Positions 16,220-19,024 of a stretch of DNA of 29,942 nucleotides are shown here, piece after piece (the first letter of the stretch is position 1; each line of letters opens with the position of its first letter). This DNA is from a bacterium (GTDB lineage: Bacteria; SM23-31; JAUVVT01), in assembly GCA_030616165.1 (NCBI GenBank), contig JAUWXV010000016.1, positions 1 to 29,942 on the forward strand. Direction: 5' to 3'. The notes below the pieces were generated by a model, which was not told the origin of the DNA, made no database searches, and saw nothing but the letters and a program-made list of their open reading frames with translations. The position numbers were made by a program, and so were the translations under genes.

Positions 16220-17164
16220 ATGGAGATTGAAATACCTATAAAGAAATGGTCTGGTAAAATTAGAGCCGTTACAATTGGAACCGAAAAAAATGGTATAACA
16301 ATTGGAGGCGAAGACACTCTTCCATTTCATCACTTTGAGGGGAGTATTCCTAATAAACCTATAATAGCTTTTGAAGTTCAGGATATATACCCATCAGACT
16401 GGTTAGATGTTGTAAAGGAACCTTATGGTGAATACTTAAAAAATCCTATTGAATGGGCAAAAGCGGCTGTCGTAAAATATAATGCAGATATGGTCTGTTT
16501 GAATTTGCTCAGCACTCATCCAGACCGTGAAAATAGAAGTGCCGATGAGGCTGCCGAACTGGTAAAGAACATAATCTCCGAGATAGATGTACCGCTCATC
16601 ATCAAGGGACCCGGTTCTTCTGAAAAACAAAACCAGGTACTTAACAAATGCGGTGAAGCGGGTGCAGGCAAGAGATGTATAATAGCTTCTGCTGTCGAAG
16701 ATAATTATAAAACTATTACCGCAGCCTGCCAGGCTTACGGACATATAGTCGTTGCAGAGACACCAATTGACGTTAATCTCGCCAAGCAGTTAAATATATT
16801 AATATCCGATATGAACTTCCCACCCGGGCGAATAATAATTGACCCCCTTACCGGGGGACTCGGATACGGGCTTGAATATACATATTCAGTTATGGAAAGG
16901 ATAAGGCTTCAGGCACTTGGCGGTGACGCGATGCTCCAGATGCCTTTCATCTGTTTTGTTGGACAGGAAGTCTGGAGAGTCAAGGAAGTTAAAGTCGATG
17001 AATCTGTGGAGCCGCTGTGGGGTGATATGAAAAAAAGAGGAATTTGCTGGGAGGCAGCAACAGCAATTACTCTTCTGTTATCAGGTGCCGATATATTAGT
17101 AATGCGTCATCCGGAGGCGATAAATATCGTGAGGAAATCTGTTGGTAGATTAATGGAGAAATAA
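16220..17164 (+). CDS. acsD: Corrinoid iron-sulfur protein small subunit (CODH/ACS delta)
   Basis: This 314-residue protein matches AcsD, the TIM-barrel small subunit that pairs with AcsC to hold the corrinoid carrying the methyl group to acetyl-CoA synthase. Recognisable stretches include IAFEVQDIYPSDW near residue 50, IIKGPGSSEKQNQVL in the middle, IIIDPLTGGLGYGLEY at about 210-225 and GADILVMRHPEAI near the C-terminus. Length is close to the Moorella protein (about 320). It normally sits next to acsC, but here a four-helix-bundle gene bounded by inverted repeats separates them. Confidence 0.95.
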   Translation: MEIEIPIKKWSGKIRAVTIGTEKNGITIGGEDTLPFHHFEGSIPNKPIIAFEVQDIYPSDWLDVVKEPYGEYLKNPIEWAKAAVVKYNADMVCLNLLSTHPDRENRSADEAAELVKNIISEIDVPLIIKGPGSSEKQNQVLNKCGEAGAGKRCIIASAVEDNYKTITAACQAYGHIVVAETPIDVNLAKQLNILISDMNFPPGRIIIDPLTGGLGYGLEYTYSVMERIRLQALGGDAMLQMPFICFVGQEVWRVKEVKVDESVEPLWGDMKKRGICWEAATAITLLLSGADILVMRHPEAINIVRKSVGRLMEK

Positions 17165-17179
17165 TTAAACGATTTAATA

Positions 17180-17607
17180 TTTACGATTTACGAAATTTTT
17201 ACATATTCTAACTAAATTATAAATAAGATGAATAGAGATGATTTAAAAAATAGGACAAAAAAATTTGCACTTGATGTTATAAAAATTTGCGATCAATTAC
17301 CGGAGTATAATGCTTTAATTGTTTTTTCAAAACAGTTAATACGTTGTTCAAGTTCAATAGGTGCGAATTATAGGTCAGCTTGCAGAGCAAAATCAAATAC
17401 TGATTTTATTAATAAATTAAAGATAGTTGAAGAGGAGACAGATGAGGCAATTTATTTCTTGGAGCTATTAAAGGAAATAAATGACAAAAAAATAAAAGTT
17501 ATAGATAGTTTGATAGACGAAGCAAACGAGTTATTAGCCATTTTTGTTGCTTCCATAAAAACAGCAAAAAAAAGAAATTCAAAAAATCTAAAATCGTAAA
17601 TCGTAAA
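17180..17607. mobile_element. Possible small inserted element: four-helix-bundle gene between inverted repeats
   Basis: TTTACGATTTACGA at 17180-17193 recurs as its exact complement, TCGTAAATCGTAAA, at 17594-17607. These 14-bp arms bracket one complete small gene, and the right arm overlaps its stop codon. Cutting between the arms would bring acsD and acsC to about 90 bases apart. The pattern suggests insertion into a formerly tight operon. No transposase and no clear target duplication were seen. Each arm is also internally repetitive (TTTACGA twice), so a hairpin origin is possible. Confidence 0.5.
17228..17599 (+). CDS. Four-helix bundle protein (23S rRNA intervening-sequence protein family)
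   Basis: This 123-residue, lysine-rich, all-helical protein matches the family: LKNRTKKFALDVIKICDQLP at the start, SKQLIRCSSSIGANYRSACR in the middle, and KLKIVEEETDEAIYFLELL. Members were first noted in insertions within 23S rRNA genes and also stand alone; the fold is shared with Avd of diversity-generating retroelements. The function is unknown. No rRNA or reverse transcriptase is here. The gene is out of place between acsD and acsC and lies within inverted repeats (17180-17607), so it is probably a passenger insertion and not a pathway part. ATAAG precedes the ATG weakly. Confidence 0.88.
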   Translation: MNRDDLKNRTKKFALDVIKICDQLPEYNALIVFSKQLIRCSSSIGANYRSACRAKSNTDFINKLKIVEEETDEAIYFLELLKEINDKKIKVIDSLIDEANELLAIFVASIKTAKKRNSKNLKS

Positions 17608-17680
17608 TTTTATGTCTCTGCGGTGAAAAAAATGTAGATAAAAACACAATTTAATTCTTAATAATATTACTGGAGTTAAA

Positions 17681-19024
17681 GTGGCACTTACTGGTCTTGA
17701 AGTTTTTAAACTTTTACCGAATACAAATTGCAGGGAATGTGGATTTGCTACATGTCTGGCATTTGCAATGCGGCTCGCAGCTAAAAAGATAGAGGCTGAA
17801 GAATGTCCATATTTGTCCGAAGAAGCAAAGGAGATATTGGGTGCTTCTGCTGTTCCTCCTATCAGACTTGTAGAAATTAAAAGCGGGGACAAATCTGTTA
17901 AAATCGGTGAAGAACTGGTAATGTTCAGGCATGAAAAAAAATTCTTTCACCAAACAGCATTTTCTGTTTGCATTGATGATTCAGAAGACGAAAGAGAGAT
18001 AACTGAAAAATTAGAAAAGATAAAAAAGATAAACTTTGAAAGGGCAGGCGAGATATTAAAACTCGACCTGATAGCAGTCAAAGATACATCCGGTGACAAG
18101 CAGAAATTCTGTAAGACCATTAATTTAATAAAGAATTTTATCGACCTTCCATTAATATTGTTCTCTGAAAATCCTGAGATAGTTACCGTTGGACTGGAAG
18201 AAATTCCCGATGATAAACCTCTGATATACTCGGCAAATAATGAGAATTGGGAAAAAATGACTGAACTTGCAAAAAAATATAACGCTTCACTGGCAATTAC
18301 CGCTGAAGATGGTCTAAAAGGTCTTTCAGAATTATCAGAAAGGATAAAAAACAAAGGATTTGAAAATATTGTTCTTAATCCGAAGTGCAGAAGTTTAACA
18401 GAAATTCTTACAAATTATACATTAATAAGAAGGCTTTCACTTGAAAATAATTACAGAAACCTTGGCTATCCCATAATTTTATATTTAGAAAATGAAGATA
18501 ATTTTATAAATTCTGCCGTAGGAATATGTAAATATGCCTCAATAGTAGTTTTTAATGATGTGAACGACTGGGAATATCTTCCCCTTTTGACCTTGAGGCA
18601 GAATATTTTTTCTGACCCTCAAAAGCCTCTTCAGGTTGAACCTGGAATTTACAAAGTAGGTGAACCGGATGAAAGTTCACCAGTTTTTGTAACTACTAAT
18701 TTCTCCCTTACGTATTTTATAGTATCGACGGAAATAGAAGGTGCGGGATTTTCAGGACATTTAATAATAACAGATGCAGAGGGCCTGTCTGTATTGAGTG
18801 CATGGTCGGCAGGAAAATTCTCCGGTGAAATAGTAGGTAAGTTTGTAATAAATTCGGGAATTGAAAATAATATTTCACACAGGAATATCATTATTCCTGG
18901 ATATGTTGCAGTAATAAGCGGGGAACTTGAGGACTCCCTACCCGGCTGGAATGTATATGTGGGACCGCAGGAGGCTTCAGACATACCTTCTTATTTAAAA
19001 GAAGTATGGTCAAAAGAAAACTGA
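17681..19024 (+). CDS. acsC: Corrinoid iron-sulfur protein large subunit (CODH/ACS gamma)
   Basis: This 447-residue protein has the N-terminal [4Fe-4S] motif Cys17-x2-Cys20-x4-Cys25-x16-Cys42 (NCRECGFATC...EECPYL), at exactly the positions known for the Moorella protein. A TIM-barrel middle and a C-terminal corrinoid-binding region follow (TNFSLTYFIVSTEIEGAGF to about the end). It binds the methyl-cobamide with AcsD and hands the methyl to AcsB, or possibly to the MesB-like enzyme at 7355. The start is GTG with TGGAG 6-7 bases upstream; a GTG start fits because the iron-sulfur motif then takes the family numbering. The acsV gene begins 10 bases after the stop. Confidence 0.96.
   Translation: MALTGLEVFKLLPNTNCRECGFATCLAFAMRLAAKKIEAEECPYLSEEAKEILGASAVPPIRLVEIKSGDKSVKIGEELVMFRHEKKFFHQTAFSVCIDDSEDEREITEKLEKIKKINFERAGEILKLDLIAVKDTSGDKQKFCKTINLIKNFIDLPLILFSENPEIVTVGLEEIPDDKPLIYSANNENWEKMTELAKKYNASLAITAEDGLKGLSELSERIKNKGFENIVLNPKCRSLTEILTNYTLIRRLSLENNYRNLGYPIILYLENEDNFINSAVGICKYASIVVFNDVNDWEYLPLLTLRQNIFSDPQKPLQVEPGIYKVGEPDESSPVFVTTNFSLTYFIVSTEIEGAGFSGHLIITDAEGLSVLSAWSAGKFSGEIVGKFVINSGIENNISHRNIIIPGYVAVISGELEDSLPGWNVYVGPQEASDIPSYLKEVWSKEN

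Follow-up and report, generated by a model that had tools for sequence, protein, structure and literature searches.

A heptad-armed four-helix-bundle gene between acsD and acsC as a probable copy of a small transposase-less mobile element

Genes for the intervening-sequence protein (IVP, also S23p) are widespread and have no assigned function, and the description of the rRNA intervening sequences (IVSs) as transposition remnants is decades old but has come with no mechanism. The IVS in the 23S rRNA of Coxiella is 428 nt long with a 28-bp stem, and the S23p ORF in it is preceded by tandem GACAGAT heptamers, at the first of which RNase III cuts (PMC4990558). IVP ORFs also occur in rRNA insertions of the CPR (PMC11270868), and the protein family, PF05635, has been reported to be homologous to Avd of diversity-generating retroelements (PMC10053308). 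Separately, intergenic heptamers have been described, namely TAACTGA in Beggiatoaceae and cyanobacteria (PMC4679880) and GGGAATC in Xanthomonas, the latter with 70-75 convergent inverted pairs (PMC4692102); these reports propose regulation or G-quadruplexes and mention no IVP gene (PMC4679880, PMC4692102). A literature search that covered few subscription papers gave no report in which IVP genes located outside rRNA are connected with inverted heptads or with polymorphic insertion, so an earlier mention is possible. IVSs and intergenic heptamers are thus each known on their own, and what appears new from the comparisons below is that IVP genes outside rRNA are joined to inverted heptads and to insertion polymorphism.

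We analyzed a bacterial contig of 29,942 nt (the window), in which a small gene lies between acsD (16220-17164, + strand; CODH/ACS delta subunit, NF003376, 441 bits) and acsC (17681-19024, + strand; CODH/ACS gamma subunit, NF003195, 558 bits), so that these matches uphold the neighbours named in an earlier note on this DNA. The small gene (17228-17599, + strand, 123 aa) runs in the same direction as both host genes and matched PF05635 with 60.5 bits (cut-off 33.8) and TIGR02436 with 81.3 bits (cut-off 24), both above the curated cut-offs, in agreement with its reading as a four-helix-bundle gene. By these profile matches it is a 23S rRNA intervening-sequence protein and is related to S23p and Avd, which form pentameric four-helix bundles; the closest solved structure by sequence match, 2rld (E=5e-14), has five chains. 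The 14-bp inverted repeats described as framing the gene are indeed present: the left arm consists of two TTTACGA heptads, TTTACGATTTACGA (17180-17193, + strand), with a looser inverted match over 17175-17193, and the right arm consists of two inverted heptads, the complement of TTTACGATTTACGA (17594-17607, - strand), lying over the stop codon. Exact inverted matching of the left and right flanks extended to at most 15 nt, and the arms were computed to be able to pair around the IVP gene. The element is located outside any rRNA gene, and an Rfam search of positions 16900-17900 gave no match.

The extent of the block was initially drawn too small. Another locus in the same genome (on contig C321), situated between two codirectional genes, shares both outer flanks with the window, over 35 nt on the left (88.6% identity) and 80 nt on the right (82.5%, E=4e-18); the shared flanks contain heptads, and between them lies a short loop and no gene. 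Since both outer flanks recur at this gene-less locus, essentially the entire 516-nt gap between acsD and acsC is repeat DNA, and the inferred insertion (17165-17680, + strand) comprises an outer flank, the left arm, the IVP gene, the right arm and a dispersed tail, GTCTCTGCGGTGAAAA...TAATAATA..GGAG (17608-17680, + strand), that runs up to the acsC start codon. Copies of the tail were found at C321:3303, C142:1655, C36:218 and C301:239, each immediately 5' of an ATG. This tail of about 60 nt, GTCTCTGCGGTGAAAA..AAAAACACA..TAATAATA, occurs at least five times, each time directly before a start codon, as if it supplied a 5' UTR or a ribosome-binding site. At acs, the sequence immediately before the acsC start comes from the insertion, which occupies the space separating two core Wood-Ljungdahl genes.

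In four distant relatives (a Cloacimonadota MAG, a Nitrospiraceae MAG, a Methanomassiliicoccales MAG and genome G050), acsD and acsC were adjacent with no gene between them. Their spacing there ranged from overlapping to about 40 nt, not the roughly 90 nt predicted for the two genes without the block. None of the five same-class genomes searched contained an acsC match. Because the empty junctions come from distant relatives only, we infer the insertion at acs itself.

We queried the 3.74-Mb genome, which is 90% complete, by targeted searches. The 14-mer TTTACGATTTACGA occurred 16 times, compared with no occurrence of a reversed control. The TTTACGA matches formed tandem arrays of 2-4 units and mostly had no adjoining IVP gene, which identifies the repeat as a heptad array and not a fixed transposon end; the view of the 14-bp repeat as a specific terminus has to be given up, as it is a tandem heptad found elsewhere in two, three or four units. 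A scan for TTTACGA hairpins with loops of 5-35 nt gave matches only at the gene-less C321 locus, and the reversed pattern gave equally many. TTTACGA heptads and ACCGCAGACGCAAAGG-type sequences also form longer composite dispersed repeats without IVP genes. Ordinary REP palindromes, distinct from the heptads, adjoin the RAYT-type Y1 genes of this genome.

The prediction that other copies would carry the same terminal repeats failed when taken literally: the IVP gene on contig C18 is accompanied on both sides by TTTAGTA/TTTAGAA heptads, and that on C184 by AGCTATT/AGCTTTT heptads. The conserved feature is the architecture of inverted tandem heptads and not the heptad sequence. The window itself (contig C249) contains a second IVP element (635-878, - strand), internally deleted and with AGCTATT-type heptads, that was 89% identical to C297:5577-5813, where the same deletion is found, and 78% identical to the longer C184 copy. 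Judged by these alignments, the 635-878 and C297 copies are dispersed non-autonomous deletion derivatives of a C184-type element.

We then surveyed IVP loci with TIGR02436 in 145 genomes, 48 of which were positive, and obtained 90 loci with usable flanks from about 47 genera; these loci share ancestry and are not phylogenetically independent. Arms were scored by local alignment of the left flank to the reverse complement of the right flank, with a threshold of 14. This score was reached in 54 of the 90 loci (60%), compared with 1.0% of AT-matched mismatched flank pairs from other genomes and 1 of 51 control ORFs (2%) taken from other ORFs of the same loci. The 40% of loci without clear arms may be old or resident copies. 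Flank autocorrelation was 0.37, 0.35 and 0.34 at lags 7, 14 and 21 in both flanks, compared with about 0.27 at other lags, with a smaller peak at lag 8, and the heptad periodicity was absent 400-600 nt away, inside the IVP gene and in 40 intergenic control segments. In favour of a chance inverted repeat in AT-rich DNA, first-order Markov flanks reached an inverted match of at least 14 nt in 12 of 3000 trials; the 16 genome copies against none for the control and the excess of armed loci over both sets of controls refute this explanation, and its remaining probability is negligible. Armed loci had a median span of 514 nt and a median arm of 35 nt, and in 16 of the 54 the right arm extended over the stop codon, as it does in the window. 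These results establish the architecture as general in the IVP family, and with high confidence we describe the element as one IVP gene between two arrays of tandem repeats, usually of 7 nt, each array being the inverted copy of the other.

Within a locus the arms matched each other, and between loci the heptads differed. A heptad was common to the closest IVPs only, with no general correlation between protein and heptad, which leaves recognition of the heptad by the protein a hypothesis. An IVP from Planktothrix, a member of a different phylum, was 52.6% identical to the window IVP and surrounded by the same TTTACGA heptads. The arms were strand-polar in gene orientation (G>C in 46 loci and G<C in 5, p=2e-9), a G-richness that may in part arise because the left array serves in ribosome binding. 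The upstream neighbour was codirectional in 80 of the 90 loci. No 23S rRNA motif was detected in the surveyed loci, and for this reason the case for rRNA-borne heptads rests on the Coxiella paper.

Plasmids of cyanobacteria (Nostocales) provided filled and empty versions of the same sites. At the first site, the unit was present in Trichormus variabilis and Scytonema plasmids and missing from Fremyella and Nostoc carneum plasmids with about 98% flank identity; a remnant of an arm and the gene start persisted in Nostoc C052, and Brasilonema carried an 84-nt inverted-heptad hairpin without a gene at the same position (folding z=-6.3). At the second site, the unit was present in pNsp_a of Nostoc ATCC 53789 and missing from four related plasmids. 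One junction beyond it, pNsp_c carried a different IVP with GGGAAAA-type heptads, which was missing from the others. A single strain thus has two unrelated IVP units at adjacent junctions of one plasmid operon, which suggests insertion hot spots. Downstream of the IVP on pNsp_b of this strain stood an array of over 30 tandem GCGACTT-type heptads. In a third full/empty set (Aulosira) the junctions were less tidy. The inserts at sites 1 and 2 measured 414 and 418 bp, and the 5-nt direct repeats GTAAT and TTCTA at these sites are a candidate target duplication, seen at two full sites and one gene-less site with mismatches beside the 5-nt core, which could be chance in AT-rich DNA. Because one and the same plasmid site is found with the unit and without it, the unit appears to be mobile, and, found in many phyla and without a transposase, to be a widespread mobile element. 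Comparative data of this kind demonstrate mobility in relatives rather than at the acs copy. The proposal of a minimal transposase-less unit within an operon accordingly stands for the family, given the empty, filled, decayed and gene-less states and the twin in the same genome, whereas at acs it is probable.

Beyond acs, the unit was found in a DISARM operon (drmD|IVP|pglX), between cas10 and cmr3, and in conjugation operons. IVP genes recurred in defence-like operons of Cyanobacteriota and Chloroflexota, with helicase/DUF1156 genes on one side and methylase/HEPN genes on the other, drmD|pglX of DISARM included. Where Planktothrix has the insertion, the homologous DISARM junction of Oscillatoria contained a different gene with (CCCGACT)n heptads and no IVP (L133 1798-1991). 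The recurrence in defence-like operons of two phyla would fit an IVP gene that resides in the operon and serves the host, next to which simple heptad repeats, common in bacteria (PMC4679880, PMC4692102), expanded by slippage. Among the cyanobacterial plasmids dN/dS between IVP loci was 0.10-0.14, and the protein therefore appears to be maintained by purifying selection, a value likewise compatible with a resident gene. However, slippage does not make inverted, locus-matched arms on both sides, the genes beside IVPs otherwise show no relationship (acs, cas10-cmr3, conjugation operons), and the empty sites at about 98% identity disfavour residence, so that we regard this explanation as very improbable. 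We instead consider it highly likely that the acs block is a copy of a small transposase-less, heptad-armed IVP mobile element, inserted between operon genes and related to the rRNA IVSs.

Which enzymes would move such an element bears on two further explanations. In the first, Y1 transposases (HUH, RAYT or IS200-type) would act in trans on a DNA unit of REP/MITE type, with the IVP as a passenger. IVP presence indeed tracked Y1_Tnp, which was found in 39 of 48 IVP genomes and 41 of 97 others (odds ratio 5.9, p=7.6e-6; 145 genomes, phylogeny ignored), and the association also held within DDE-positive and DDE-negative strata, whereas across the same genomes there was no association with RT (p=0.69) or DDE_Tnp_1 (p=0.59). 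In addition, the gene-less hairpins resemble REPs, and the window's genome has seven Y1 matches, six without an internal stop. However, these six genes had ordinary REP palindromes or no clear repeat and no heptad flanks, nine of the 48 IVP genomes had no Y1 match, and a passenger role is at odds with the purifying selection on the IVP gene (dN/dS 0.10-0.14). IS200-type insertion is not known to make a target duplication, which also counts against Y1 transposition; we consider this explanation unlikely. DDE_Tnp_1 had no match in the window's genome.

The second explanation, insertion through RNA, holds that a reverse transcriptase copies the element's RNA once this has folded, the IVP playing the part of its homologue Avd. 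The reported Avd homology of PF05635 (PMC10053308), the strong codirectional bias of IVP loci and the placement of rRNA IVSs within transcripts, as RNase III substrates (PMC4990558), would all be in keeping with it. Selection alone can give a codirectional bias, though, and both the lack of association between RT and IVP across genomes (p=0.69) and the lack of an RVT_1 match at E<=1e-5 in the window's genome (90% complete) count against this route, which we consider as unlikely as the first. As candidate partners we rejected both RAYT as the cognate enzyme, which was associated across genomes yet had no heptads beside the Y1 genes of the window's genome, and reverse transcriptase as a universal partner, which showed no association across genomes.

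For the preferred reading, a heptad-armed IVP mobile element, we propose the following mechanism. In a transcript or single strand, the heptads would pair to form a stem whose loop holds the gene, and an IVP pentamer would bind this stem and be required for spread. A nuclease, polymerase or transposase supplied in trans would cut and join, leaving a short target duplication. The arms could be kept alike through slippage and hairpin-templated copying, processes suggested by arms that are locus-matched yet fast-changing. Insertion between codirectional operon genes would be tolerated, with expression by read-through, and the acs insertion would be one such event. More tentatively, and with rather less than even confidence, we suggest a class of bacterial mobile elements, spread over many phyla, whose sole protein is a non-catalytic Avd-like pentamer that recognizes its own, fast-changing heptad hairpin and borrows host enzymes for movement, with the 23S rRNA IVSs and at least part of the intergenic heptamers of cyanobacteria, Beggiatoaceae and Xanthomonas as members, remnants or non-autonomous derivatives. 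IVP genes outside rRNA that travel as armed units of about 415 bp would give this family a role, the cyanobacteria in which full, empty, decayed and gene-less sites occur are culturable and offer a test system, and the element is a candidate origin for intergenic heptamer repeats.

The element shares features with several known systems. It resembles diversity-generating retroelements in that its four-helix-bundle protein is reportedly homologous to Avd (PMC10053308), but no reverse transcriptase, template or variable repeat was found at the element. Like REP/RAYT systems it includes dispersed palindromic intergenic repeats, and Y1 genes co-occur with it across genomes; in contrast to them, the RAYT genes of the window's genome have no heptad flanks, and the arms of the element are tandem and hundreds of nucleotides apart. 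Like MITEs it is short and dispersed, has inverted-repeat ends, lacks a transposase and gives rise to internally deleted copies, and the acs block itself has terminal inverted repeats and no transposase gene. Unlike MITEs, it carries a conserved protein under purifying selection and ends in variable tandem heptads instead of a fixed TIR, and no parental IS was found for it in the window's genome, where DDE_Tnp_1 was searched. With the intergenic heptamers it has in common a 7-nt unit, an intergenic position, the occasional inverted pair and the want of an explanation; a link of those heptamers to IVP is putative. It comes closest to the 23S rRNA IVSs, such as that of Coxiella, through its protein family, similar size, heptamers and the inverted-repeat stem that also encloses the IVP ORF at acs. 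Versions of rRNA IVSs without an ORF are known as well, a further likeness to the IVP element. Unlike the IVSs, the element lies between protein-coding operon genes, and its heptad differs at nearly every locus. Thus, with the same protein, size and inverted heptads but a place outside rRNA, the acs block would work like an IVS without being one.
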